NCBI GenBank assembly: GCA_905479805.1
Contig: CAJQNY010000070.1
Coordinates: 1 to 36,459, forward strand
Length of the DNA stretch: 36,459 bases
Reading direction: 5' to 3'
Source: an uncultured Arenicella sp.
Lineage (GTDB): Bacteria > Pseudomonadota > Gammaproteobacteria > Arenicellales > Arenicellaceae
How positions within the stretch are numbered: position 1 is the first letter of the stretch; each line of letters begins with the position of its first letter. This document shows, piece after piece, positions 3,404 through 35,864 of the stretch. Both the position numbers and the translations under genes were made by a program. The notes under the pieces were generated by a model. The model searched no databases. It saw nothing but the letters and a program-made list of their open reading frames with translations, and had not been told where the DNA came from.

Positions 3404-3892
3404 TTATGGTGATGGTATCGCGTGGGCAACCATGGTATTGCCTTCAAACACTGGCGCATCCATTACCACGGTGTCAGTGACGAAAATGAAATCCAATATT
3501 CCGTTTTCATTGGAATCTCGGTGCAGCATCACTATAAACATCTCACCCGTATCGATACCCTTATGAACTTTAAGGGGAACGTCAATATTCTTTCCATCTT
3601 CGAGGAACGTTGCGGCGACGTATTTATCGCCGTTGGGCTTGCCATCTTCAAATGGATGCATGACCAACCAGCCATTGCCATTAATCTGAACCTCAGGAAA
3701 CGTCAAAGTAGATTCGCTACGACTAAGGCCTTCGACAACGATCCAATTTTTTTCACCATTCCCGAGTGTAATAGCGGCTTTTTCAGGTGTTTTATAGGCT
3801 GCTGTGTCATCAGTCGTTTTAGACTCGGCAAAGATCGACGTTGACAATAATGTTACAGCGAGTGCGATAAAGTATTTATGAATAGATGGCAC
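3404..3892 (-). CDS. Secreted protein of unknown function (DUF7282-like)
   Basis: N-terminal signal peptide (MPSIHKYFIALAVTLLSTSIFAES) and a beta-rich domain with DGKPNGDKYVAATFLEDGKNIDVPLKVH...DSNENGILDFIFVTD. Confidence 0.5.
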   Translation of the reverse strand: MPSIHKYFIALAVTLLSTSIFAESKTTDDTAAYKTPEKAAITLGNGEKNWIVVEGLSRSESTLTFPEVQINGNGWLVMHPFEDGKPNGDKYVAATFLEDGKNIDVPLKVHKGIDTGEMFIVMLHRDSNENGILDFIFVTDTVVMDAPVFEGNTMVAHAIPSP

Positions 3893-3975
3893 AGCATTAC
3901 TCCGAGTTAGTTAAGCGTTATAGTTGCAGTCTAGCATGCTTGAAAGTATGCCCTAAATCCTTCAGATCGAATCCT

Positions 3976-4551
3976 TCAGATCGAATCCACCCAGTGTTCA
4001 CATAGCTTACGGCATTGTAATGGCTTGATCGCACCCTCTTCCAAGCACATTTCCAGCCAAAGACCATCGATAAGCGCGGTTAAACCGAGTGCAGCCATTT
4101 TAGGAGAAATTTGCTTACCTTTTAGTTCTTGAAGCTGCATAAATAATTGTTCTAAGTAGCTTGTAAATGAGGAGTTAGAATCGGATTGTGCTGACTGAAT
4201 CGCGGGCGATGAATCAATCAAACCCCAGAAAACAACCCAGGCGCGAAGCACTCTGCGCTGTAACACTTGCCCTGAAAATATTTCTTTGATAAACGCTGAT
4301 AGCTGCTGTCGAGCATCTCCTTCTGATTTCATGCTCGCTTCAATAGCGCTATCCAAAAATGTAAATGCTAAATAGCTATACGCAGCGGCGATTAGATTAT
4401 CGATTGACCCAAAATGGTAGTTAATAAGCCCCGTGGAAACCTGCGCTTTCTCCGCAATTTTTCTTACCGAACAGCCATCAACGCCCTCTTCCATTAGGCT
4501 TTCAATGGTTGCTTCAACTAATTTGAGCTTGGCTTTACTTAGTGGCTTCAT
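3976..4551 (-). CDS. TetR family transcriptional regulator, BetI-like
   Basis: N-terminal HTH GVDGCSVRKIAEKAQVSTGLINYHFGSIDNLIAAAY; C-terminal ALGLTALIDGLWLEMCLEEGAIKP resembles the BetI C-terminal domain; divergent from the next cluster. Confidence 0.85.
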   Translation of the reverse strand: MKPLSKAKLKLVEATIESLMEEGVDGCSVRKIAEKAQVSTGLINYHFGSIDNLIAAAYSYLAFTFLDSAIEASMKSEGDARQQLSAFIKEIFSGQVLQRRVLRAWVVFWGLIDSSPAIQSAQSDSNSSFTSYLEQLFMQLQELKGKQISPKMAALGLTALIDGLWLEMCLEEGAIKPLQCRKLCEHWVDSI

Positions 4552-4595
4552 TAACTCTATGACCCAAATACCATGTTAAGAAGGATAATCCCATT

Positions 4596-4624
4596 TTGAC
4601 AGCGTTTCTCATTTAAGGTAAATT
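4596..4624 (+). promoter_or_regulatory. Sigma70-type promoter: -35 TTGACA (4596-4601), 17-bp spacer, -10 TAAATT (4619-4624)
   Basis: Consensus -35 hexamer with optimal 17-nt spacing to a near-consensus -10, upstream of the ATG at 4671. Confidence 0.65.
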
Positions 4625-4637
4625 GAACGAGTGTTCA
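4624..4637. promoter_or_regulatory. Palindromic operator candidate TGAAC-GAGT-GTTCA overlapping the -10/+1 region
   Basis: 5-4-5 inverted repeat in TTGAACGAGTGTTCA, the kind of site bound by TetR/BetI-type regulators; the TetR gene is immediately adjacent and divergent. Confidence 0.6.
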
Positions 4638-4670
4638 GTTTATATTGAGAATAGCTATTTGGGAACAAAA

Positions 4671-5882
4671 ATGTCAAACAACCTCGCAACGCCTCAGTTG
4701 AGCGAATCTTTAGCACCTGACTTTTACACGCCATTGTGCTCAAAAACAATTCAATCCGTCAATGCACAGCCAGATGGCCTTGAGATTACGCTTGGTGATG
4801 GCACTGTGTTGGATGGTTTTTCTTGGTTCTGGGTTCGTGATCATGGCATTGATGCAAAGAGCATGGACCATACAACCTTGCAGCGCAATACTGATACATT
4901 CGCGTTAGAACAAGGACAAGCGAAGCCGGAGGTAACCTTAGATTCGGATGATCAATTAATTGAAGTTTTTTGGCCTGATGGTGATAAATCTCTACTGTCA
5001 GCATATTCCCTACTTAGTATTAAACAGGAGGCATCTTCGCAACATCATTTAGCACCCAAAATCGGTCGCATATTATGGGATAAAGATCGGCCATTAGAAA
5101 ATTTGCCCACCGTAGATCACTCACGAGTTATGTCAGAAGATTCAGCCCTTTTGGATTGGCTTGAAAAAATACACTCTTATGGTTTTTGTGTGGTCGAAGG
5201 CGTTCCCTCTACAGAACAAGCAACGGCCGATTTAGCCAAACGAATCGGTATTGTGCAAGAAACCATCTTTGGCGATATGTGGAAACTGTCTGCTGAACTT
5301 ACCGAGCACGGCGATACCGCTTACACGACGCAATACCTCGAACCGCATACGGACGGAACTTACTATCATGACGCTGCGGGGCTTCAAATGTTCAATTGCT
5401 TTGAGTTTGACGGTAAGGGTGGCGAAAGCGTTCAAGTAGATGCGTTCGCGATTGCGGATCAAATAAAAACCGCGGATCCAGAGGCCTATCAAACCCTATG
5501 CCAGACGATTGTTCCTGGTCACTACATCGAACCACAGGTGCATCTCCGCGCAGAACGGCCAACTTTTCGCCTTGATTCCAACGAGGATCTTGCGCAGGTC
5601 TCGTTCAATAATTATGACCGTGCGCCGATGATGATGACGGATAATCAAACCAAAAAATTTCATCACGCCTACGGATTATTCCACGAACTTGCTAACAACC
5701 AAGACAATTGGATAAAGATTCCGCTGCGCCCAGGCATGACGCTGATCTTCGATAATTGGCGTAATATGCACGGTCGTATGGGTTATGTAGGCAAGCGTGT
5801 CTTCTACGGTTGTTACCATAATATGGCCGTCTTCGAGAGCAAACTGCGTGTATTGCAGTCAGCTAGCGCCCGGTTATTGTAA
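4671..5882 (+). CDS. Fe(II)/2-oxoglutarate-dependent oxygenase, gamma-butyrobetaine dioxygenase/TauD-like
   Basis: N-terminal DUF971-like region followed by TauD fold: YLEPHTDGTYYHDAAGLQMFNCFEFDGKGGESVQVDAF (HxD) and TLIFDNWRNMHGRMGYVGKRVFYGCYHN (distal His, 2OG Arg). ATG at 4671 preferred over the TTG start at 4623, which lies inside the promoter/operator. Confidence 0.8.
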   Translation: MSNNLATPQLSESLAPDFYTPLCSKTIQSVNAQPDGLEITLGDGTVLDGFSWFWVRDHGIDAKSMDHTTLQRNTDTFALEQGQAKPEVTLDSDDQLIEVFWPDGDKSLLSAYSLLSIKQEASSQHHLAPKIGRILWDKDRPLENLPTVDHSRVMSEDSALLDWLEKIHSYGFCVVEGVPSTEQATADLAKRIGIVQETIFGDMWKLSAELTEHGDTAYTTQYLEPHTDGTYYHDAAGLQMFNCFEFDGKGGESVQVDAFAIADQIKTADPEAYQTLCQTIVPGHYIEPQVHLRAERPTFRLDSNEDLAQVSFNNYDRAPMMMTDNQTKKFHHAYGLFHELANNQDNWIKIPLRPGMTLIFDNWRNMHGRMGYVGKRVFYGCYHNMAVFESKLRVLQSASARLL

Positions 5883-5884
5883 CG

Positions 5885-7963
5885 ATGAACCCGAATCACA
5901 AAATATTATTTGAGCCGGTTAAAATTGGGCCCGTAACCGCGCCCAATCGTTTTTATCAAGTTCCACATGCAAGTGGCATGACGGAGGCTAACCCACGGGT
6001 GCGAGCAGCATTCCGCGGCATGAAAGCTGAAGGTGGCTGGGGTGTTGTGTCAACAGGCGCTGTATCAATTCACCCATCTTCTGATGATAGCCCATTACCC
6101 TTTGCACGACTTTGGGATGATAATGATATCGCTTCGCACGCACTCAGCTGTGATGCCATTCATGAACACGGTGCACTCGCCGCAGTGGAGCTTTGGCACG
6201 GTGGTGCGTCGGTAATGAACCGAACCTCACGTATTGCTCCTTACTCACCTTCGGGAATCCCATGGGCCGCAACTCACGTCGGCTTTATGGGTCAACAACG
6301 CCCCAAGATAATGGATAAGGACGATATTAAGGATGTCATCGCCTGGCAGGTTGCCGCGGCACTTCGCGCCCAACAAGCGGGCTTCGATATCGTGTATATC
6401 TATGCTGGCATGGGTTATCTCGGATATGAATATCTATTGGAAGAATACAATCACCGAACGGACGAATACGGCGGCTCAGTGACTAACCGAACACGCTTTG
6501 TCCGAGAGTTAATCGAAGCAACTAAGGACGCGGTTGGAGATAAATGTGGTGTAGCCTTACGAATAAGCCTTGAAGAGCTTCGCGGCAAGCGAAACGATAA
6601 TTTCGCATCCGAAGCGCATGCGGTTGTCAGTTTGCTCGCAGACGTTCCGGACCTGTGGGATGTCAAAATGGATTCAAGCCCAACAGATTGCGGAGCCTCA
6701 CGTTTTCGTGAAGAAGGAGCACACGAACCTACCATCGACTTCGTAAAATCGGTAACCGATAAACCTGTAGTAGGAGTCGGAAGATTCACCTCTCCTGATA
6801 CCATGGTTTCGCAAGTAAAGAGAGGCATACTTGATCTCGTTGGTGCTGCTCGAGCATCTATCGCTGACCCATTCCTACCTGAGAAAATTCGCACAGGCGA
6901 CGCCGACAGAATTCGCGAATGCATTGGTTGTAATATTTGCATCGCTAGTTGGCATGATGGCGTTCCCGTTAGATGTACTCAGAACGCAACGATTGGTGAG
7001 GAGTGGCGGAAAGGTTGGCACCCCGAGAGCTTTAACAAACCTGGCAGTGACGATCGTATCTTGATAGTCGGCGGCGGGCCATCCGGGTTAGAAGCAGGCT
7101 TGGTGGCGGCACGTCGCGGCTACCACGTGACCATCGCTGACAAAGCCTCTTCAATGGGCGGACGACTTAACTTCGAGACCAGCCTACCAGGCCTAAATGC
7201 TTGGGGAAGAGTTCGTGATTATCGCCTCTATGCCTTACAGCAAATGGGCAACGTTGATTTGTTTCTCGAGAGCGAGTTGACGGCTGAAGACATTTTGGAA
7301 CTCGGCCACCAACAAATCGCCATCGCTACTGGCGCATACTGGACCAAATCTCTGTACTCCGCCCTCGAGATACCACTTGGCACCTTAGATTCTCCCAATG
7401 TGTTTACTCCCGATGATCTTGCCAGCGGAGTGGTGCCGCCGGGCCCTGTATTAGTTTATGACTTTGACAATTATTACCTAGGTGGTGTTATCGCAGAGTC
7501 TTTGGCACAACAAGGCAGCAAAGTTTGTTACGCCACCCCTGCTGGCCATGCGTCGGCTTGGACTATCATGACGAACGAGCAACCATTCGTTCATCAAGCA
7601 ATGCACGAACTATCAATAGACGTCAAAACTCAGACTTTGTTAACGGCGTATGAAAACGGCCTCGCGCAACTCGAGAATATCTTCACCAACGCACCCGATC
7701 AGCTCAAGGTGAATTCGATCGTCATCGTTGGATTGCGATTACCCAACGATGCCCTCTATCAAACTCTCGTCAGCCGTAGTGACGACCTGCAGAAATCTGA
7801 CATCGCCGCCGTGCAACGAATAGGGGATTGCTCCGCAGCTGGCGCTATCGTGCACGCCGTGTATTCCGGACATGAATTTGCACGCTCACTTGATAACTCC
7901 GAACAGAAAAGTTACCTACGAGATATTCCGATTCAATTGAACCCACCAGGTCTCGCAATCTAA
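5885..7963 (+). CDS. FMN/4Fe-4S/NAD(P)-binding oxidoreductase of the trimethylamine dehydrogenase / 2,4-dienoyl-CoA reductase family
   Basis: N-terminal OYE-type TIM barrel (FEPVKIGPVTAPNRFYQVPHASGM), CIGCNICIASWHDGVPVRCTQNATIGEEWRKGWHPE (CxxCxxCx11C cluster motif), then ILIVGGGPSGLEAGLVAARRGYHVTIADKASSMGGRL. Confidence 0.88.
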   Translation: MNPNHKILFEPVKIGPVTAPNRFYQVPHASGMTEANPRVRAAFRGMKAEGGWGVVSTGAVSIHPSSDDSPLPFARLWDDNDIASHALSCDAIHEHGALAAVELWHGGASVMNRTSRIAPYSPSGIPWAATHVGFMGQQRPKIMDKDDIKDVIAWQVAAALRAQQAGFDIVYIYAGMGYLGYEYLLEEYNHRTDEYGGSVTNRTRFVRELIEATKDAVGDKCGVALRISLEELRGKRNDNFASEAHAVVSLLADVPDLWDVKMDSSPTDCGASRFREEGAHEPTIDFVKSVTDKPVVGVGRFTSPDTMVSQVKRGILDLVGAARASIADPFLPEKIRTGDADRIRECIGCNICIASWHDGVPVRCTQNATIGEEWRKGWHPESFNKPGSDDRILIVGGGPSGLEAGLVAARRGYHVTIADKASSMGGRLNFETSLPGLNAWGRVRDYRLYALQQMGNVDLFLESELTAEDILELGHQQIAIATGAYWTKSLYSALEIPLGTLDSPNVFTPDDLASGVVPPGPVLVYDFDNYYLGGVIAESLAQQGSKVCYATPAGHASAWTIMTNEQPFVHQAMHELSIDVKTQTLLTAYENGLAQLENIFTNAPDQLKVNSIVIVGLRLPNDALYQTLVSRSDDLQKSDIAAVQRIGDCSAAGAIVHAVYSGHEFARSLDNSEQKSYLRDIPIQLNPPGLAI

Positions 7964-24097: not shown

Positions 24098-24883
24098 CTA
24101 TTCAAGTAACCCTATCAGCTGCAATGCTTGAAGCGTTAAATCTTTCCGTAGGTGCGCTTGGGTAGCGTCTGTTAACTTCATATTAAGTGCGAATAAGAAT
24201 AGCTCATCATCTTTTCGTAGAAAGCCGACGTACCAACCAACGGCTAACTCAGGACCCGTCCAGCCACTCTTCGCAAATACCGTTTCCTGCGCTCCATCCA
24301 ATTGCATTATCGATTCAAGTATTTTGAGTGATCGATCAGTGAGCCATGCGTATTCACCATTCATCACATCGCTCAAAAAAGCTATTTGCTCATCCGCCGA
24401 AATTTTAAGTGTCCCGTCTAACCAAAACGTCCTCACCCCTTTACCGACCTCACGGTTCCCATACGATATTTCTGCAAGCTTTTCTCGGTAATTTACCAAA
24501 CCAATGCTGGTCGCAATATCTTGGTAACACCAAACGCAGGAAGCTCTAAATGCAGAATTTAATGTGTGGTCTCTATTCCAGGCTGACACACTCCTGGAAA
24601 TACCATCCCATTTAAAGCGATCCTCCTGCCCCTTTAACACGCCATTTTCTAGGGCGATTAAGGTATTCAATATTTTAAACGTCGAGGCCGGCGAAAACCG
24701 CTGTTCAGCGCGGCTGGGGTTATGCACAGACAATGTTTGACCTTGAACATTTGCAACCACCAAAGTCCCTTCAACGCCATGAGACTTGAACAATTCTGCG
24801 ATGAGCTGGCTATCACCGTCCGCTAGAATATTATTAGACATGATCAATAAAACAGTAGCGAACAACTGTATCTTAAATTTCAT
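24098..24883 (-). CDS. Class D (OXA-type) beta-lactamase
   Basis: Signal peptide; RFSPASTFKILNTLIALENG (STFK), ASCVWCYQ (SxV), SYGN, FWLDG, FAKSGWTG (KSG). Confidence 0.9.
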   Translation of the reverse strand: MKFKIQLFATVLLIMSNNILADGDSQLIAELFKSHGVEGTLVVANVQGQTLSVHNPSRAEQRFSPASTFKILNTLIALENGVLKGQEDRFKWDGISRSVSAWNRDHTLNSAFRASCVWCYQDIATSIGLVNYREKLAEISYGNREVGKGVRTFWLDGTLKISADEQIAFLSDVMNGEYAWLTDRSLKILESIMQLDGAQETVFAKSGWTGPELAVGWYVGFLRKDDELFLFALNMKLTDATQAHLRKDLTLQALQLIGLLE

Positions 24884-24942: not shown

Positions 24943-25902
24943 ATGGCCCTATTCAAGATCATCGCAATCATTTCTCTGAGCATAGTGATTAATTCAAATT
25001 CTTATGCACATAGTGATAATGCTCCAAAACCTCTTGAACTCGATGCGCTGCTTGGCGCTTTCGGCTGGGATCTAAACGCAACTGAGATCAAAACAGAAAA
25101 GCTTACCGACAACTTGTATGTCCTGTTTGGAGCTGGCGGAAACATAGCGGCAAGCGTTGGAGAGGATGGTGTTTTCATTGTAGACAATCAGTTCCCTCAG
25201 TTGATGCCAAAAATTGAGGCTGCAATTCGAAAAGTCGGCGGAGAGCGTATCGATTTCGCTGCCACCACCCATTGGCATTTCGATCATGCCGAGGGTAATC
25301 TTGCACTGGGACCAAAGGGAACCACTCTAGTTGCACACAAAAACTCCCGCGCCATGATGCTACAAGACAATATCGTCAACCTTGTCTCCGTTGCCTATGA
25401 TCAAAAAGCGTATCCTAGTGATGCACTACCAGACATCACCTTTAGTGAAGAACTACAGTTTCACTACAACACTCAAGCGATTGAACTCATGCATTTCGGC
25501 CCAGCACATACCACCGGTGACGCAGCCGTTTGGTTTCGTGGAGCGAATGCCATTCATTTAGGTGATGTATTCAACAATAGCGGCTACCCATTTATTGATG
25601 CGGATAACGGTGGTGAGTTAAAGGGAATGATCAGTTTTTGTGAACAGGTTTTATCACGCATAGATCAAGACACCATTGTTATCCCTGGCCACGGGCCAGT
25701 GAGCAACTATGCTGGTCTTGAGCACTACATTGTGATGCTAAAAACGACCTTAGCCCGATTGGAAAATCTTGTTGCTGAAGGCGCTAGCCTAGAAGAGGTT
25801 TTTGCCGCTAACATAACTAAAGAATTTGATGAAAAAATGGGCAACAACCAGCTATTCATCAATCGCGCCTACGAAAGCCTGCAGGGCAAGCACAAGCACT
25901 AA
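24943..25902 (+). CDS. MBL-fold metallo-hydrolase (exported)
   Basis: Signal peptide; ATTHWHFDHAEGN (HxHxDH), HFGPAHTTGDAAVWF, HLGDVFNNSGYPFIDADNGG, VIPGHGPVS. Confidence 0.9.
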   Translation: MALFKIIAIISLSIVINSNSYAHSDNAPKPLELDALLGAFGWDLNATEIKTEKLTDNLYVLFGAGGNIAASVGEDGVFIVDNQFPQLMPKIEAAIRKVGGERIDFAATTHWHFDHAEGNLALGPKGTTLVAHKNSRAMMLQDNIVNLVSVAYDQKAYPSDALPDITFSEELQFHYNTQAIELMHFGPAHTTGDAAVWFRGANAIHLGDVFNNSGYPFIDADNGGELKGMISFCEQVLSRIDQDTIVIPGHGPVSNYAGLEHYIVMLKTTLARLENLVAEGASLEEVFAANITKEFDEKMGNNQLFINRAYESLQGKHKH

Positions 25903-25906
25903 GCAA

Positions 25907-27202
25907 TTAGCGTTGATCGGTACGTGGAATGGATGAAAGAAGTTCGTTGTAGTAGCTTTTTATAGAGCTTAAATCGACCCCATTCAGAAAGGAAGAGTAC
26001 GAGAGATAACAAAGCAAAAACCGCATATCTAAGGCCCACGGCGGTAGGTATTTCGGAGGCTTACACAAGCCTCGCTCGGTTAACTCATGCATCACCGGGA
26101 TATCTTCTATCCCTAGCTTTCCACAGAATAAATAGTGTAAGCAGTCAGCGCGGCCGGTCGAAACTATTGTTCTTAAAAAATTATGGACACGTACTAACCC
26201 ATCCAAGTAAACGCCGTCTTTGGTGAATGGCGCGCCGCCCTCCATAACGCCACCGCGAAATACTCTGCGGGCATTCTCAAACGATTGCTCTTTCGCGCCG
26301 GTGCGCTCTAAATAGTAACGATAAACGTCAATAAAGTTTGCGCCATCGACCGCCATTTGAATAGCAATCACTCGGTCGGCAAGACGCCGCATTCGATCAA
26401 TGTCGATAGAGCCAGTAATGAACTCGGCAAAGACCGCCAAGCCTTCCTGAGTTTTAGTCGTCCCTGGATGACCAGCCCCCAAAATTTTGAGATCCGTTTG
26501 CGCGTGACCGTTTAACGACGTCGCAACGTGGATATAGGCCTCATGATTAATCAGCTGGGCTATATCCTTATCCGTAAAGCACGCTGTACGCCGCAAACGT
26601 ATGCGGCTTGGGCCTGCTAGTGCGTTGGCCGATAGCTCATCCACTATTTGTATTTTAGGCGCTTCATCCTTGAACATTCTATCCACAGCCTTCTGCATCT
26701 CATCAGCGACGGTCTGAGCCAAATGACAGGCCTCTGGCGGTTCGCCAATATCAATACCTGCTATAGCGTCAACATGGCGATCAAATTGCTGTGCGAGATC
26801 CAAGGACGTGGTCTCTCCATCATTCTGAAAGCTCATCGGCGTACCGTAGAGCTCACTTGAGTATTTAAAGAAATCTGTCGTACCGCAAGACTCTAGCATC
26901 TTTGCGCTATTCTCAATAACCGAACAGAGTCTTAGCAACCAATCATCAACCGCTGAATGTTTTATGTGTTGTTTTGCCTGAGCTACCAAGGCCAACGGTT
27001 TACTTGAATCAAATGGCTTATATTGGACTTGAGGTAACTCGCACCCATGGCTAGCCAGAAAAGATTCTCGAACCTCTGGACCCCAAGCCAAACGGCTTAA
27101 GATACGAATAGATCGTGACGCGTCATAGAGCATATCGCTAACGAGGCTAATTCGTTCATTATCAGCGTAGTCCTGCACTCTCTTCACCTCCGCATCACGC
27201 AT
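25907..27202 (-). CDS. DUF1704 / QEGLA-motif protein (MATCAP-like metallopeptidase family)
   Basis: LINHEAYIHVATSLNGH (HExxxH) and GTTKTQEGLAVFAEFITG (QEGLA motif). Confidence 0.82.
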   Translation of the reverse strand: MRDAEVKRVQDYADNERISLVSDMLYDASRSIRILSRLAWGPEVRESFLASHGCELPQVQYKPFDSSKPLALVAQAKQHIKHSAVDDWLLRLCSVIENSAKMLESCGTTDFFKYSSELYGTPMSFQNDGETTSLDLAQQFDRHVDAIAGIDIGEPPEACHLAQTVADEMQKAVDRMFKDEAPKIQIVDELSANALAGPSRIRLRRTACFTDKDIAQLINHEAYIHVATSLNGHAQTDLKILGAGHPGTTKTQEGLAVFAEFITGSIDIDRMRRLADRVIAIQMAVDGANFIDVYRYYLERTGAKEQSFENARRVFRGGVMEGGAPFTKDGVYLDGLVRVHNFLRTIVSTGRADCLHYLFCGKLGIEDIPVMHELTERGLCKPPKYLPPWALDMRFLLCYLSYSSFLNGVDLSSIKSYYNELLSSIPRTDQR

Positions 27203-30200
27203 TCATTAACGATTCATCAAACTCATAATCTGAGTAATTGACGCTGTAGAACACACTATATAAACATGGTATCAGTATCAATGTAATCAATGTGCCGAAC
27301 AGTAATCCACACATAATGCTTATTGCCATCCCTTCCCACATTGCTCCGCCACTAATATACAAAGGCAATAAACCCAACACCGTGGTAAGGGTGGCCAACA
27401 GAATGGGCCTGAACCGTTGTAAGCACGCGGCAATAATAGCTTCGTTGATAGGCCGACCAACCTGCGTATTTTCAAAGTCAATTCGGTCGAGTAGAACAAT
27501 CGCATTATTGATGACAATTCCGGCTAAGGATATCAAGCCAAGAAACGGCATAAATCCAAACGGTTTCTGAAACACCAGCAGACCCGCAGTAACACCAATC
27601 AGACCCAATGGAATGGTCGCTAACACCATGCTCGTTTTGCGAAATGAGTTAAACTGAATAACCAACAGTAAAACAATAATTATTCCCGATAAGGGCAACC
27701 ATTTTACGACAGCCCCCATACTATCCGCACTGCTCTTCGCGTCGCCTCCGGTTGAGTAACTGTAGTCATTCGCCCAATTAATCGCTTGCTCTTCCAGCCA
27801 AGGATCCATTATGGCCATAACTTCTGAGGCATTCCCTGAACTATTCAATTCACTGGATACGTTCATGGTCCTCACAAGGTCAAGCCTCTTTATTTTTGCG
27901 TATTGCCAGGCCGGTATTATCTTAGCGACTTGCAACAATGGAACGCTCGCACCAGAGCTTTGAGCAAACACATTCATACTTTCGAGTGATTGCAAACTCT
28001 GTTGATTCAGATTACTTTTCAACAAAATGGGAATTGATTTATCCCCTTCACGATATTCGCCTGTATCAAAACCATCTAAAGTTGTTTGCAATGACGTTGC
28101 GATATCATTACTCGAAATGCCCGCGCTTTGGGCACGCGCCTGATCAATTTCGATAATGAACTTTTTACTCTTTGGCCCCCAATCATCCTTTACATTTTTG
28201 GTTCCTGGAATGGAAAGCAACTTCAACTTAATTGTTTCCCCTACACGCACTAACTCATCAGGTTCGGGGCCAGATATTTTGATTTCGATCGGCGTACCGG
28301 TACCGCCTGCACCTAAGGTGTTTGCTAAGATATCAGCCTGAGGAAAATTCTCGGATGCGTATTTGTCTAATTGCGCAACCACCATCTCATTTTGCTCTGG
28401 CGCACCTGTATTCACTAAGATATGAGCGTAGCTTGAATTTGCCTCATCAGCGGAGTAACCATTATCGTAGGATGAAGGACCTTCACCGATGTAAGAAGAC
28501 CATGCAATCACACCCTGCTCTCGTTCCTCGTTAATCAACATCTCCGAACGCAAATAGCTCGACATCTTATCAACAATATCTTCCGTAGATTCAACGCGTG
28601 TACCCAAGGGTAAATTGACATCAACGGTTATTAAATTACGATCACTATCAGGGAAAAATACGAATGCTACATAGCGAAAACCGAACAAAGAAAGCATAAA
28701 CAGGCCAAACGCGACCCCTATCACTAATGCCTTTCGGGACAATGAAAACAGAATCACATCTTTGTATAGACCTTTTAAACGTGCAATCGTTCTATCAACC
28801 AAACTTGGTGTTGCCGTCTCCGGATCATCTACTCTCAGGAACATGTAGCACAACATAGTGATGACAGACATGGCAACCAACCAAGATGACGCCAACGCAA
28901 AAGTGATAACCATAAATATCGGCCCAACAATATCGCCCATATTCGACTCAGCCAAGAAAAATGCGAGAAAAGCCACTGATGAAGTAAGAGTTGAAATAAG
29001 CAACGACATCCACAATTCAGAAAAGGATTCCATCGCGGCAATCCTGGCTTTGATGCCTTTCTCCATTTTAACCTGAATTGCTTCTGCGACGACTATGGCA
29101 TTATCCACCATCATTCCTAGTGCCATAATCAATGCGGCCAAAGTCACTTGATTGAGGCCGATTTTAAACCACCCCATCAACACAAATGTGAGAATGGTTA
29201 CAATCGGGATGAGACTCGCTATTACAAACCCTGTTCGCAAGCCAAGAAAAACCAACATCACCACCAAAATAATACCGATCGACTGCGCAAGGTTGATCGC
29301 GAAATCGTTTACTTTCTTTTCGATATAGGTGTCCATTGATACGATACGCTCAAGTTCCAAGCCAATCGGCAACTTACTTTGCCAGCGCGCAATAATCTTA
29401 TCGATCTGCCTACCCAGTTTAATAACATTCGCATTTTTCTTAAGAGACACGTGCAGGGTCAGCGCTTTATTCCCGCCGACTGTCACTACTTGAGATGGCG
29501 GGTCAACATAACCTTTGCGCACTGAGGTAATATCACCCAAGTAAACCAATTGATTCGCTTCACCAACAGGTATCAAAGTGCTTCGCACGTCATCTATGGA
29601 TGAGAAATTACCTGTTGGTTCGAGATTGATTCGCTCGGAGCCTAAGTTGACCTCGCCTCCAGAGCTTAGAATGTTTAGCGATGCCAAAATACTACGTAAT
29701 TTCGTGGCGCTGAGACCATACTCCGACAAGCGCGAATCATTGAACTCGATGAACACTCTCTCACCTTGGGCGCCATTCATCTCAACTTTGGAGGCTTCTC
29801 CCAATTTAATTAGTTCATCTTTGATATCGTCCGCATAGTCTTTCATCTCTGCGTAACTGAAGCCATCACTGGTCAAGGCGACAGCGATGCCGTAGGTAAC
29901 CCCGACATCATCGTCTTTTAACTCTGGGTTCACTCCGTCTGGCAGTCCCTCTACATCTTCCAACTTGCGCCGCAACCTATCCCAGATACTTTGCAGCTGC
30001 TCGGGCTTAACATCATCCTTTAAGGTGATCACCACCACAGACAAGCCAGTCCTAGAAGTACTGCTAATCTCCTTTAACTCGGGCAATTCTTGGGCTTTCT
30101 TTTCGATTTTATCGGAAACGAGTAACTCCACTCTTTCGGGGCTAGCGCCCGGAAAACTCGATACAATACTCGCTACCCGAATAGTGAACGGCGGCATACT

Positions 30201-30305
30201 GTCACGAGAAAGCGATTGATACGCGGATATCCCCATGATCAGTGCCATCGCCAGCAAAAAAAGCGTAATGCGATTATTGTCGATTGAAAATTTAGCCAGA
30301 TTCAT
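27195..30305 (-). CDS. RND efflux transporter permease (AcrB/HAE1-like)
   Basis: MNLAKFSIDNNRITLFLLAMALIMGISAYQSLSRDSMPPFTIRVASIVSSFPGASPERVELLVSDKIE; VTLAALIMALGMMVDNAIVVAEAI; LISLAGIVINNAIVLLDRID. Start 30305 preferred over 30386. Confidence 0.92.
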   Translation of the reverse strand: MNLAKFSIDNNRITLFLLAMALIMGISAYQSLSRDSMPPFTIRVASIVSSFPGASPERVELLVSDKIEKKAQELPELKEISSTSRTGLSVVVITLKDDVKPEQLQSIWDRLRRKLEDVEGLPDGVNPELKDDDVGVTYGIAVALTSDGFSYAEMKDYADDIKDELIKLGEASKVEMNGAQGERVFIEFNDSRLSEYGLSATKLRSILASLNILSSGGEVNLGSERINLEPTGNFSSIDDVRSTLIPVGEANQLVYLGDITSVRKGYVDPPSQVVTVGGNKALTLHVSLKKNANVIKLGRQIDKIIARWQSKLPIGLELERIVSMDTYIEKKVNDFAINLAQSIGIILVVMLVFLGLRTGFVIASLIPIVTILTFVLMGWFKIGLNQVTLAALIMALGMMVDNAIVVAEAIQVKMEKGIKARIAAMESFSELWMSLLISTLTSSVAFLAFFLAESNMGDIVGPIFMVITFALASSWLVAMSVITMLCYMFLRVDDPETATPSLVDRTIARLKGLYKDVILFSLSRKALVIGVAFGLFMLSLFGFRYVAFVFFPDSDRNLITVDVNLPLGTRVESTEDIVDKMSSYLRSEMLINEEREQGVIAWSSYIGEGPSSYDNGYSADEANSSYAHILVNTGAPEQNEMVVAQLDKYASENFPQADILANTLGAGGTGTPIEIKISGPEPDELVRVGETIKLKLLSIPGTKNVKDDWGPKSKKFIIEIDQARAQSAGISSNDIATSLQTTLDGFDTGEYREGDKSIPILLKSNLNQQSLQSLESMNVFAQSSGASVPLLQVAKIIPAWQYAKIKRLDLVRTMNVSSELNSSGNASEVMAIMDPWLEEQAINWANDYSYSTGGDAKSSADSMGAVVKWLPLSGIIIVLLLVIQFNSFRKTSMVLATIPLGLIGVTAGLLVFQKPFGFMPFLGLISLAGIVINNAIVLLDRIDFENTQVGRPINEAIIAACLQRFRPILLATLTTVLGLLPLYISGGAMWEGMAISIMCGLLFGTLITLILIPCLYSVFYSVNYSDYEFDESLMNA

Positions 30306-30342
30306 ATGACTACACCCAGATAATGCTCCTTTTGGCTGAACA

Positions 30343-31431
30343 TTACTGGGCCCGAACCTGTTGCCCATCCAACACACTGTGGACACCTGCGGTGATAATC
30401 AGATCACCAACTTCTAATCCGGTTATCACTTGAAAATTATTCCCAATCAAACGACCTATCTCCACAGGTCGTTTGCGAACGAAGGCTGACTCGCCATCAT
30501 CAGATTCTTCTAGTATAAAAACAAACTGGCTCTGCGAATCTTCACCGATAGCAGTGGCGGGCACCAATAATTCGGATACTTGATTACTGCCACCGTCAAA
30601 ATCAAAATCAACCGTCGCTGCCATACCTGATCTAATGGCTTCGGAAGCTTCAGTCAGACGAACTCTAATAGGATACGTCGCGGTTTGTCTGTCAACCGAA
30701 GGCGAGATTTCTGAGACTTCTCCCGTAAATTCACGTTCTGGTATCGCCGCGAATTTCACTGCGACTTTAGTATTTTTCTTAACCTTGTTAATCACACTTT
30801 CTGGCAAACCCAAAGCAATCTCCATATCTGAGCCTGCGTTCAAAATGGCAACGGTTTCGCCCGCAGTAACATTCTCATCTACCTCCTTATTTACCACGGC
30901 AATTACACCTGTCTCCGGGGCATAAATTTTACCGTAGCGAATTTGTTCTTGTTGAATCTCTACACTCCGTTGCGCAGACCGATAACTTCCTCTTGCAGAG
31001 CGAAATGAATTTTTAGCGTTTTCGTAATCACTCAGCGACGACCCACCTTTTTCGAACAAATTCTGGACACGCTTGTAATTCGATTCCTTAGTGTCCAAAT
31101 CAGACTTCGAACTGTTTCTTGAAGCAACGGCCTGCTCATAAGATAAACGAGCTGAAACGTTATCTAACTCGGCAAGCAGATCTCCTTTTGTGACCTTTTG
31201 GCCAAGCGTAATATTGAAGAGAGTGATAATACCGGTGCTTCGAAAGCTTAAATTCACCACGCGATCTGTTTGCGCGGCCCCGTTAAACGATCTTTGTGCA
31301 TTACCAGAACCTAGCCCCACAGCCATCGTGCGTACGCTACGTAAAGTGACTTCTTCTATTTCCTCTTGGGCACATGAACTAACCCCCAACAAGGTTATGA
31401 GCATTAACGCAAAATTCTTCATATTAACCAT
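30343..31431 (-). CDS. RND efflux periplasmic adaptor (membrane fusion protein), probable lipoprotein
   Basis: Lipobox-like LLGVSSC, SFRSTGIITLFNITLGQKVTKGDLLAELD, IYAPETGVIAVVNKEVDENVTAGETVAIL; start codon overlaps the upstream stop (TAATG). Confidence 0.9.
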   Translation of the reverse strand: MVNMKNFALMLITLLGVSSCAQEEIEEVTLRSVRTMAVGLGSGNAQRSFNGAAQTDRVVNLSFRSTGIITLFNITLGQKVTKGDLLAELDNVSARLSYEQAVASRNSSKSDLDTKESNYKRVQNLFEKGGSSLSDYENAKNSFRSARGSYRSAQRSVEIQQEQIRYGKIYAPETGVIAVVNKEVDENVTAGETVAILNAGSDMEIALGLPESVINKVKKNTKVAVKFAAIPEREFTGEVSEISPSVDRQTATYPIRVRLTEASEAIRSGMAATVDFDFDGGSNQVSELLVPATAIGEDSQSQFVFILEESDDGESAFVRKRPVEIGRLIGNNFQVITGLEVGDLIITAGVHSVLDGQQVRAQ

Positions 31432-33833
31432 TATTTAGCCCCCGCTTTGCGGTTTCCGTGTTGTATTCGATAGGCTTCATAACCCTCGATAAACTCACGG
31501 TTGTGTAAGGAAAAATTATCTAAGAATATGAAGTTACCGACCGCTCTCTCTAAACTCACTGCACTTTCCAAAAAGTTATATAAGGCATTAGAGCTCCCCA
31601 ATTGCGCTTGCAAATAATTATTCTGTGAATCGATTAACTCGGTAATCGTAACGGCGCCGTTTGCGTAGGACGCCTCGATCAACTGCAAACCCTGCAACGC
31701 TGCTTTTTCAGCGACGGCTGAAAGCTCGATATTAGCGATGCGCCCCGAAAGATCGAGCATTGAATCTCTTACTCTGGTTTCTATCTGCTGCGCTTGATTC
31801 GCCATTTGAATCTCCAACTGTTCAAGTTGCTTCCTAGCAACCCTCAGTTTCACGTTATCAGAGTTACGATTAAACAAAGGCACAGAGAACATCAAGCCTA
31901 GGTTGTAATCATCATCAAGCGCCAAATTAGGGTCAGGCACGCCAACCCCGCTTCGATCAAACACATTATTGTATTGTGCCGACGCGCTGACCGTGGGGAT
32001 ATAACGGCGCCATCCGTATTGTTTAATATCTCTTTCGCTAGCAGCTTGATTGTGACTTAACGCAGCCAACTCAGGGGAGGACTCAAACGCTATATCAATC
32101 AAATAGTTTTCGAGGATAATTGACTCAGAGGGGTCATCCATAATCGCGCTCAGTCGACGATAGCTAAATTCTTCCGGTTCAAACGGACCATTCTCTAGCT
32201 CAACCTCTTCGACCGCCACACGAGTGTCGATCGGGTTATTGAGTATTCGATTTAATGCATGCTGTCCTTGTTGAAACGAATTTAATGCATCAATCAATGA
32301 CTGGGTGTTTGTCGCCATTTCACTTTGAAAACGAAAAATATCAGCCTTGCTTGATTGACCAGCATCAAAGTTGAGCTTTGCAACATTGAGGTTACGCTTG
32401 GTGATCTCAAGGTTTTCAGATTGTGATTGCAATGCATTCTTCAAACGCAATAAATTAAAGCATGCTTGTGTTGTCGTCAGTACCGTATCCAATACATCGG
32501 TATTGTAATTTTCTTTCTCCGCTAGCAACAAACTTCGTTGTATACCAATAGCCGCACTAGCATCTTCAGAATATAAAGTTTGCGACACGCCGATGGATCC
32601 AGAAACCGTTTCCTCTGGGTTCTGTCCACCGGATAAGCGAGCCAAATCAGGGTCTACATAACGACCGCTTGCGCTCAATGATAAATCAGGTAGGTAGTTG
32701 GTCCTAGCAGAAGCCACATTTTCAGCAGCCAAATCGACATCTAGAGCACTAGAACTAAGAGAAAGGTTGTTTTTTAGCGCTATTTCTACCGCGTCTAATA
32801 CTGTCAATGTTTGGTCGACTACAAAGTCATCGAAACTCCCAACCACATCGGTGGTTGCGATTTGGCTAAACCGTAACGCCACACCAATTTTCTCTGCGGT
32901 GTTGTAGTTGAGTGTAATTACTTCGCCTAAGTCGATATATACGGGACGCTGTGAAAGGTTCTCACCATTGACAACCGCATCAACACTCAATGCTATTCGA
33001 CGAAACAAGCGCTCAAAACTAGAATCCGATTGGTTAGTTGCCAACCAACCATCTCTCACATCAGATGTGGCAGTATTGGTAAAGGATGGGAGCTTCTTTC
33101 GAATAAAAATATCTGCCAACTCTTTAACTTCGGCTCTCAGAATCCCGAAGCCTTCTGCCATGTAAACTGAATCCACGTTCTCCAACTCTTGTTCCAACTG
33201 CTGCGGAGATTCATACGTCAACAGTTCATACTCTGCACCGATTTCGGCAAATACGGAATCGAGAACGTCTCTGGTCTCCACAGTATCCCAAGGCCCATAT
33301 GCACCTATCACTCCGACTCTTTCAAACGGGAATATGGTTCTGAAATCGAGCATGTCTTTTCGGTAAGAGTTCGATAGCAATATATACGTGAAGTTCCGAA
33401 TTCCTGACACTCTCTTCGCTGCATCAATATCAACAACATCCGTATTCACAGCACCAAATAAAATCGTCGGTTTTGGAAAGGACTTTTGATTGACGATTAC
33501 TTCGTTATTAATCGGACCAAACGCGAGGATTATATCAACACTGCTTTTCTGTAATTCTTGGTACTGCTGTCGTGCTAACTTGATATCGAAATTATTCGCG
33601 AGAATACCCTGTTTCGAAAAGACAATATTGGCATCACTGCCCACAACAGCGACTATCTCAGAACGCAATTGGTCGAATATAGGAATAAACTCATCGTTTT
33701 TATAGTCAACCAACACACCAATTTCGTAAGTCCGTTGCGCTAAAGCATTGCCCGTCGATATTGCCATCACAATAAGGCACGCGATGGCATTCCTTAATAG
33801 TAAGGTAACAATGACTCTCATGATGGAATTCAT
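31431..33833 (-). CDS. TolC-family outer membrane factor with N-terminal ABC_sub_bind-like periplasmic binding domain (fusion protein)
   Basis: Signal peptide; residues ~36-325 resemble PF04392-like substrate-binding proteins (VDIILAFGPINNEVIVNQKSFPKPTILFGAVN ... RRIALSVDAVVNGENLSQRPVYIDLGEVITLNYNTAEKIGV); residues ~342-800 have two OEP repeats (LTVLDAVEIALKNNLSLSSSALDV..., YNLGLMFSVPLFNRNSDN..., GAVTITELIDSQNNYLQAQ). Confidence 0.82.
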   Translation of the reverse strand: MNSIMRVIVTLLLRNAIACLIVMAISTGNALAQRTYEIGVLVDYKNDEFIPIFDQLRSEIVAVVGSDANIVFSKQGILANNFDIKLARQQYQELQKSSVDIILAFGPINNEVIVNQKSFPKPTILFGAVNTDVVDIDAAKRVSGIRNFTYILLSNSYRKDMLDFRTIFPFERVGVIGAYGPWDTVETRDVLDSVFAEIGAEYELLTYESPQQLEQELENVDSVYMAEGFGILRAEVKELADIFIRKKLPSFTNTATSDVRDGWLATNQSDSSFERLFRRIALSVDAVVNGENLSQRPVYIDLGEVITLNYNTAEKIGVALRFSQIATTDVVGSFDDFVVDQTLTVLDAVEIALKNNLSLSSSALDVDLAAENVASARTNYLPDLSLSASGRYVDPDLARLSGGQNPEETVSGSIGVSQTLYSEDASAAIGIQRSLLLAEKENYNTDVLDTVLTTTQACFNLLRLKNALQSQSENLEITKRNLNVAKLNFDAGQSSKADIFRFQSEMATNTQSLIDALNSFQQGQHALNRILNNPIDTRVAVEEVELENGPFEPEEFSYRRLSAIMDDPSESIILENYLIDIAFESSPELAALSHNQAASERDIKQYGWRRYIPTVSASAQYNNVFDRSGVGVPDPNLALDDDYNLGLMFSVPLFNRNSDNVKLRVARKQLEQLEIQMANQAQQIETRVRDSMLDLSGRIANIELSAVAEKAALQGLQLIEASYANGAVTITELIDSQNNYLQAQLGSSNALYNFLESAVSLERAVGNFIFLDNFSLHNREFIEGYEAYRIQHGNRKAGAK

Positions 33834-33950: not shown

Positions 33951-35864
33951 TTAACCGTTACGGTAGATGCCTGCCGGGTAGTCGTCACACCCTAGTTCAC
34001 TGTATTCAGTCGGATCCCAATAATCACTGGCCTGGTAACCATGTAAAAAGAGCGCGGCATAGGCTTCGCAGCGTTCCGATTGTGATCCAAAATCCGGGTC
34101 GGCCGTAAGCTGCGCTTTTATATCCACCACACGGTTGCGTATTTCCGCCATCCTTATCCCATGATCTTCTGGACTATCAAATACTAATAGATTATCGCCC
34201 TCGGGTTGCCATTGTTGCCACACAGGCAGCTTCCCGCTACGCCCCCTTCCTGGCGTGCCGTTGTAAGCAAACTCTGCCCAATACTCCATCATTGCCATTG
34301 ATAGTGAATTTCGGCCAGGAGCATTCGCTTTATTTAGTAACGGGCCCAAAGGTGCGCCACCGATGAAGTCGCCAAACACGAAACTTATTTCCAAGCCATG
34401 TGCCGCTCCTATTAAACTTGGCATATCAGCCAACCAATTATTTGGCGAGTCATCCCAATCAAAACGATAGGCAAAAACTTTAGACGCTCCATGCTTAGTA
34501 ATTAGCGCAGCAGGTTCATCAACGGCGCCTGCCTTCCAATTTTGTGACACATAGTCAGAGATTCGCTGATACTTGCTCTCATCTATGATCCGAGGAAAGA
34601 CGCCCAACAGATTATCGACAAGTTCATCATCACCCATCATAAACAACTTATTCTCATCACGATTCGCGCCAACGATGAGTGGTACCGCATTGTAGGTTCC
34701 AGCTTGACTAAGGCTCTGCAGCACCGATGCTTTAGGTATTACGTGCCCGTCACGAACAATTCTAGCGACTCTAATCTCATCCGCTTCTCCGAGATTGTTT
34801 GATGCCAGACTCATGAGGGAATCCGCTGATTCAGCGCGCATAAGCTCTAACAATTCAGCGGCGTTAGATGATTCAATTCTTGATTTTATTTCGACTGCGG
34901 TTTCATTCGGAAATCGATGGCTGAACACTAGGTTCAGCAGAGCGTTGGAGCTGTTCTTCAATCCGGAAATTGGTTTTCCGGCTGCGTCTTCAGGCAAGTC
35001 TTCTGCAAGAGACAACAACGTCGTATCAGCGCTGCCGCTTTGTGATATCGCCTTATGAAACAGGCCTGCGGCAAGCGGTGAAGCCAACATAGAGAATACA
35101 TTTTTACCTCCAGCTGACTCGCCAAAGATAGTGACATTGGAGGGGTCGCCACCAAATTGTTCGATATTGTTTTGCACCCATTTGAGCCCAGCAATAATAT
35201 CTAATGTTCCAAAGTTACCTGAAGCATCTTCTAAATTGTTTGCTTGCTCGCGTATTGAAGAGTGACTCAACCAACCCATCAAACCTAAACGATAATTTAG
35301 CAACACCACAACCACATCTTGTGCCCCAGCTAAATGATGTGCTTGATAACTGTTAGCGGTGCCTGAGTCGTTCCCGCCCCCGTGAATCCAGACCATCACG
35401 GGCCGTTTCTTTTCGGGCACATCTTTAGACACGATCTCTTTCGGGGCCCAAAGATTCAAATACAAACAATCTTCAGAGCCAACAATATCGCCCTGCTCAC
35501 CTTCAACGCCAGCCAATCGCCCCCAATATTGCACGCACGGATTACCGTGTTCGGTCGCTTGGTAAACGTCATTCCACCTGTCTACAGTTTGTGGTGCTCG
35601 CCACCGCAATTCTCCCACTGGCGCCTTCGCAAAAGGGACCCCAAGCCACGCTTGGGTGTCATAGGCATCACTGAATCCAACGATAGAACCACTATCAATT
35701 GTTCGCAAAGAGTCTTCATCGACTATTCTTGCCCCTTCATAATACAAGCCTCCAGTACTTGGCTCAGAAAGTGATGGTGACTCATTCACCTTAAAATACC
35801 CGAAAGCCATTAATGACGTTAGCAATACAAGGCCTATTACCACAAAGATTATTTTTTTGATCAT
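33951..35864 (-). CDS. Carboxylesterase/lipase family protein (type-B carboxylesterase)
   Basis: N-terminal membrane anchor/signal; YLGVPFAKAP-like WLGVPFAKAPVGELRWRAPQ, SEDCLYLNLWAP, VMVWIHGGGNDSG, TIFGESAGGKNVFSML (GxSxG). Confidence 0.9.
   Translation of the reverse strand: MIKKIIFVVIGLVLLTSLMAFGYFKVNESPSLSEPSTGGLYYEGARIVDEDSLRTIDSGSIVGFSDAYDTQAWLGVPFAKAPVGELRWRAPQTVDRWNDVYQATEHGNPCVQYWGRLAGVEGEQGDIVGSEDCLYLNLWAPKEIVSKDVPEKKRPVMVWIHGGGNDSGTANSYQAHHLAGAQDVVVVLLNYRLGLMGWLSHSSIREQANNLEDASGNFGTLDIIAGLKWVQNNIEQFGGDPSNVTIFGESAGGKNVFSMLASPLAAGLFHKAISQSGSADTTLLSLAEDLPEDAAGKPISGLKNSSNALLNLVFSHRFPNETAVEIKSRIESSNAAELLELMRAESADSLMSLASNNLGEADEIRVARIVRDGHVIPKASVLQSLSQAGTYNAVPLIVGANRDENKLFMMGDDELVDNLLGVFPRIIDESKYQRISDYVSQNWKAGAVDEPAALITKHGASKVFAYRFDWDDSPNNWLADMPSLIGAAHGLEISFVFGDFIGGAPLGPLLNKANAPGRNSLSMAMMEYWAEFAYNGTPGRGRSGKLPVWQQWQPEGDNLLVFDSPEDHGIRMAEIRNRVVDIKAQLTADPDFGSQSERCEAYAALFLHGYQASDYWDPTEYSELGCDDYPAGIYRNG

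Follow-up and report, generated by a model that had tools for sequence, protein, structure and literature searches.

Why should the outer membrane duct of an efflux pump begin with a domain resembling a periplasmic substrate-binding protein (SBP)? The question is raised by one gene in the window, the 36,459-nucleotide contig of an uncultured Arenicella sp. analysed here (CAJQNY010000070.1), for which a preliminary description had reported an uninterrupted 800-aa open reading frame. The frame occupies precisely positions 31431-33833, is read from the minus strand and runs through its 800 codons uninterrupted; the plus strand of this interval is stop-rich. On the basis of Pfam, modelling and fold comparison, we annotate it as a fused substrate-binding-fold/TolC-family outer membrane factor (OMF), with all of its parts on the minus strand. 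A signal peptide of the signal-peptidase-I type (residues 1-32, ending GNALA before QR; 33738-33833) is predicted from the sequence and coincides with a model helix at residues 2-28. It is followed by an N-domain with a type I periplasmic-binding (ABC_sub_bind/TrpX-like) fold (residues 33-330; 32844-33737), assigned from relatives' profiles and the model, and by a linker placed by alignment and model (residues 331-344; 32802-32843) that joins the N-domain to two OEP repeats identified by Pfam (PF02321; 32238-32795, residues 347-532, and 31536-32102). The TolC region, residues about 345-770, is complete, as had been described: PF02321 matches twice (E=1.9e-50 overall; stretches of 95.4 and 94.0 bits) and the model has a TolC fold, while TIGR01844 scores 125 bits, under its cut-off of 225. 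A weak lipobox-like string at C19, within the hydrophobic stretch of the signal peptide, is probably not real; checking the lipobox pattern across the family gave only 4 weak matches among 76 members.

Searched alone, the N-terminal part of the window protein had no significant match in Pfam, NCBIfam or PDB sequence searches, and an ABC_sub_bind assignment is therefore unobtainable from this one sequence by profile search. At the level of sequence profiles, the ABC_sub_bind/TrpX-like identity becomes firm through relatives: PF04392 matched the N-domains of 7 of 20 (best 4.4e-9), the TrpX model NF041285 matched 10 of 20 (best 4e-8) and a profile of the N-domain family found 3LKV (E=4.5e-8), 6HNI (E=1.6e-4) and 3LFT (E=2.8e-3) in the PDB. 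A single-sequence AlphaFold2 model was discarded (pLDDT 34), whereas an alignment of the 76 relatives as input gave a model with pLDDT 89.1 and pTM 0.79. Compared with the PDB by Foldseek, this model matched TolC best (7NG8 from Klebsiella, TMt 0.86; 1EK9, TMt 0.82), and the first non-OMF matches were 3LFT, 6HNJ, 3LKV and 6HNI (TMt 0.74 for 3LKV, 0.71 for 3LFT and 0.69 for 6HNI), which are ligand-bound SBPs for tryptophan, tyrosine and phenylalanine (PMC6816091). The SBP architecture, two lobes with a hinge, is retained whole. The SBP fold that had been proposed is thus borne out by relatives and by the model, and the signal peptide supports a predicted export of the domain that carries it. 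The N-domain and the TolC part are likely to be fairly fixed relative to each other, because freely moving domains would be expected to bring pTM nearer to the fraction of the larger domain.

The architecture recurs widely. A search with the N-domain found matches in 23 of 369 same-class genomes, the window's own included, and nearly all lie in open frames of 770-830 aa; a few hits, in genomes G177 and G265, are unfused SBPs of about 400 aa, and the copy in G214 is broken. Twenty full-length fused proteins from this search align to the window protein at 22-29% identity. Scanning GTDB contigs yielded 171 relatives, and of the best 80 nearly all are fused. The full-length fusion occurs in at least 12 phyla, and these best 80 of 171 loci, some of them on complete isolate chromosomes, are drawn from Bacteroidota, Thermodesulfobacteriota, Pseudomonadota, Acidobacteriota, Gemmatimonadota, Calditrichota, KSB1, Aminicenantes, Latescibacterota, Krumholzibacteriota, Ignavibacteriota, Nitrospinota, Nitrospirota, Hydrogenedentota and Myxococcota. 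The median length of the 76 aligned members is 796 aa. Plasmid records had no match to the N-domain alone; searched with the whole fused protein, one record matched most of that protein, which adds Campylobacterota through a Sulfuricurvum plasmid. Although the window contig comes from a 280-contig assembly that is 78% complete, the chance that a sequencing or assembly error joined two genes here is negligible, because scores of independent genomes across these phyla share the fusion, including the complete replicons NZ_AP021874, NZ_AP024488, NZ_CP071793 and NC_014754.

The neighbouring genes point to an exporter. On the minus strand of the window, the fused gene is followed by a periplasmic adaptor gene (30343-31431; TIGR01730 above cut-off), the stop codon of the former and the start codon of the latter sharing bases in TAATG, and by an RND pump gene (27195-30305; PF00873, 516 bits), whose likely start is the ATG at 30305 and not the listed GTG at 30386. 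The tripartite set of RND pump, adaptor and OMF is therefore complete in this operon, in keeping with the proposed coupling to an RND pump. The run ends with a MATCAP gene (25907-27202, minus strand; PF08014, E 8.5e-126), which is probably co-transcribed with the pump gene, since its start overlaps the RND stop (TGATG). The MATCAP family is named after eukaryotic tubulin carboxypeptidases. A carboxylesterase-family gene lies on the same strand (33951-35864), about 118 bp upstream of the fused gene. Neither of these two genes is a recurring partner in the relatives' neighbourhoods. Just downstream of the efflux operon is a class D beta-lactamase-like gene (24098-24883, minus strand; NF012161, 248 bits against a cut-off of 250; nearest to the OXA-198/OXA-372 families), with a SoxH-related metallo-hydrolase gene (24943-25902, plus strand) divergent from it.

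Adaptor and RND pump genes sit beside the fused gene in 63 of the 80 best loci. Another 4 have an adaptor, RbbA and an ABC-2 permease, and 1, at a contig end, has an ABC-type adaptor; 4 have an adaptor or a pump only (3 of them at contig ends) and 8 have no partner (4 at contig ends). Fused genes with no adaptor or pump nearby are found at L056, L088/L152, L089 and L094, and L088/L152 belong to a small genome of 1.3 Mb at 72% completeness. The RbbA assignment is well above threshold (equivalog NF033858, 1494 bits against a curated cut-off of 1050). The 20 gammaproteobacterial loci, 3 of whose contigs recur in the 80-locus set, divide into 9 of the RND type, 9 of the RbbA type, 1 broken and 1 solitary. 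On the Sulfuricurvum kujiense plasmid pSULKU01 (NC_014754.1), the fused protein (L185:6911-9322) is annotated as nothing more than 'ABC transporter substrate binding protein'; the gene order is TetR, fused gene, HlyD, rbbA and permease. In this second group of loci the operon of the RbbA-YhhJ-YhiI ABC exporter includes the SBP-OMF gene, whereas the window operon uses RND. By gene content, then, a single duct family serves two types of exporter that are unrelated to each other, and the N-domain is accordingly not tied to one pump.

A small K+-channel-like gene (PF07885, with a T[IL]G[YF]G[DE] filter) adjoins the fused-OMF operon in 13 of the 80 loci, from at least 6 phyla and with varying position and orientation (L027:16628-17323, L030:16647-17300, L039, L045, L055, L072, L048:12278-12982, L104, L085:8938-9699, L081, L074:243-1076 and L096:9287-9736, both on the minus strand, and L038). 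It is present at 1 of 20 gammaproteobacterial fused loci versus 0 of 20 unfused OEP loci, and a search of the window's own genome gave no match.

How old is the fusion? In a tree of the OEP parts, a quick reconstruction with long branches that should be read with care, a branch with SH-aLRT 98 separates 41 fused rows from 28 ordinary, unfused OEPs of the same gammaproteobacterial class. Distances in the N-part and the C-part correlate at r=0.89, whereas permutations reached at most 0.24. Given these two results, the simplest reading would be a single old fusion inherited as a unit. The nearest relative of the window protein, from Aureivirga marina, a member of the Bacteroidota, matches it at 36% across the full length and is paired with it in the tree with a value of 100, and the window RND pump scores best with pumps of Bacteroidota and related groups. 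The operon (27195-33833) therefore looks Bacteroidota-derived within a genome that is itself gammaproteobacterial, and horizontal transfer is likely.

Set against known systems, the protein shares with the TolC/OMF family (PF02321, TIGR01844) its two OEP repeats, its fold and its position alongside adaptor and pump genes, and differs by an SBP domain of about 300 residues ahead of the OEP region. With TrpX and other ABC_sub_bind proteins (PF04392, NF041285; 3LKV, 3LFT, 6HNI) the N-domain shares the two-lobed fold and a weak but consistent sequence similarity. However, TrpX partners an importer, whereas the fused protein is joined to an OMF and partnered with an exporter; in the loci examined, the neighbours of the fused gene are exporters. 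We class the protein as an outer membrane factor variant and not as a TrpX protein, because it has neither the ligand residues nor the importer context of TrpX. From its sequence and neighbourhood, it is predicted to be the OMF of a tripartite RND efflux system, and to belong to an old family whose protomers all bear an SBP fold at the N-terminus.

The ligand site is central to what the N-domain might do. In TrpX-type SBPs, the amino acid is held by T108, A127, T129, D152 and N233 (S. suis numbering; PMC9382623). At the columns judged equivalent to T129, D152 and N233, the first of which was assigned by alignment from motif position and not by structure superposition, I/V/L, L/F/T and L/P/F predominate in the fused family, whereas the commonest letters in stand-alone PF04392 controls are T, D and N. 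With these proteins as control, we reject a TrpX-like amino-acid ligand on the residue check: the signature is absent throughout the fused family. Any ligand would not be held as the amino acid is in TrpX, and the site would therefore bind something else or nothing. The family has invariants of its own, namely D43 (76/76), Y150 (74/76, where controls have Gly in 30/30), N147, S143 and R278 (75/76). Asp43, where strand 1 ends, and the conserved residues S143-G144-N147-Y150 together suggest that a special site has been kept. The ratio of cleft to overall entropy, with cleft positions read from strand ends of the model and not from coordinates, is 1.03 in the fused family versus 0.98 in stand-alone PF04392 proteins. 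Because stand-alone SBPs show an equal ratio, the variability of the cleft loops argues neither for nor against a ligand, nor does it prove that one was lost.

We favour ligand-conditioned export as the leading mechanism, with a probability of roughly 45%, and a structural role follows close behind. The protein would be exported by its signal peptide and would trimerise as TolC does, placing three SBP domains around the duct at the level of the equatorial ring, because the TolC polypeptide starts there; each would lie beside the duct, neither in the bore nor at its adaptor-facing tip. Each N-domain may bind a small periplasmic ligand other than an amino acid held as in TrpX, and by opening and closing in response to that ligand could condition adaptor docking or duct opening; alternatively, the domain may concentrate substrate near the pump. 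Either way, export would depend on substrate. Capture for the pump would need hand-over along the length of the duct, and conditioning of the duct or of assembly would be nearer at hand. This reading draws on the match of the model to both TolC and ligand-bound SBPs, the kept operon with either exporter type, the joint inheritance of the two parts and the site around invariant Asp43. The N-terminal helix of TolC also extends out of the equatorial domain in the direction of the membrane (PMC13082787). Against it stand the absence of the TrpX residues for amino and carboxylate groups and cleft loops that are no more conserved than the remainder. The stronger proposal, that the duct's own SBP domains, on binding periplasmic cargo, decide when it engages an RND or ABC-2 exporter, is doubtful.

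A plausible alternative, though short of even odds, is that the N-domain is a ligand-less SBP fold serving as a collar or anchor, which would brace the equatorial ring, set duct height or touch peptidoglycan or the adaptor. It would then be the in cis equivalent of the lipidated N-terminus of OprM or of the lipoprotein YbjP for TolC. In E. coli YbjP-TolC an extra periplasmic domain sits at the equatorial ring, three per trimer (PMC13082787, PMC13095208), as may also hold for the fused protein; however, YbjP is a separate, lipid-anchored lipoprotein of another family (DUF3828) without an SBP fold. Occupying this same place on TolC, it is a precedent for an anchor, and according to PMC13082787 it does not support a role in signalling, which counts against ligand-conditioned export. 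Loss of the TrpX ligand residues fits a collar, as does the scarcity of lipoboxes in the family, which would make a substitute anchor useful, and among the lowest-entropy positions of the N-domain are some on the side facing away from the cleft, as well as the helix residue Arg278. Yet the two-lobed architecture is entire, hinge included, and an anchor needs no such binding fold; moreover, Asp43, at a cleft position, is invariant in all 76 members.

It is improbable that the domain instead senses the state of the envelope or of efflux and, through another protein, regulates expression or pump assembly and not transport itself. In an Ignavibacterium genome, an unfused, SBP-like protein of 481 aa that shares the N-terminal motif of the fused family, INIAVVRDGP (L090:606-2048, minus strand), is encoded some 1.6 kb away from a sensor kinase of the Reg_prop/Y_Y_Y kind (3679-7311), and TetR genes flank the Sulfuricurvum operon, but no recurring kinase or regulator is directly tied to the operon in the neighbourhoods examined. 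Uptake, in which the duct admits a ligand that the SBP domain catches, is very improbable: the nearest solved relatives of the N-domain serve importers (PMC6816091), whereas every partner found is an exporter, either RND or RbbA/ABC-2 with HlyD-type adaptors.

Our literature search, which had most subscription journals outside its reach, found no description of the SBP-OMF architecture; the parts are known, and what is apparently undescribed is their conserved union, how widely it occurs and its pairing with two kinds of exporter. Judged by its distribution, the family represents a widespread variant of the outer membrane factor. Such proteins are easily misnamed, as the Sulfuricurvum annotation illustrates, and the family is open to direct test in cultured strains. 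In tripartite efflux, the pump and adaptor are credited with substrate choice, and the outer duct is mostly seen as a passive pipe. With a conserved binding-protein fold as part of the duct itself, in more than 10 phyla and alongside two unrelated types of exporter, one class of ducts would join in recognition, gating or placement.
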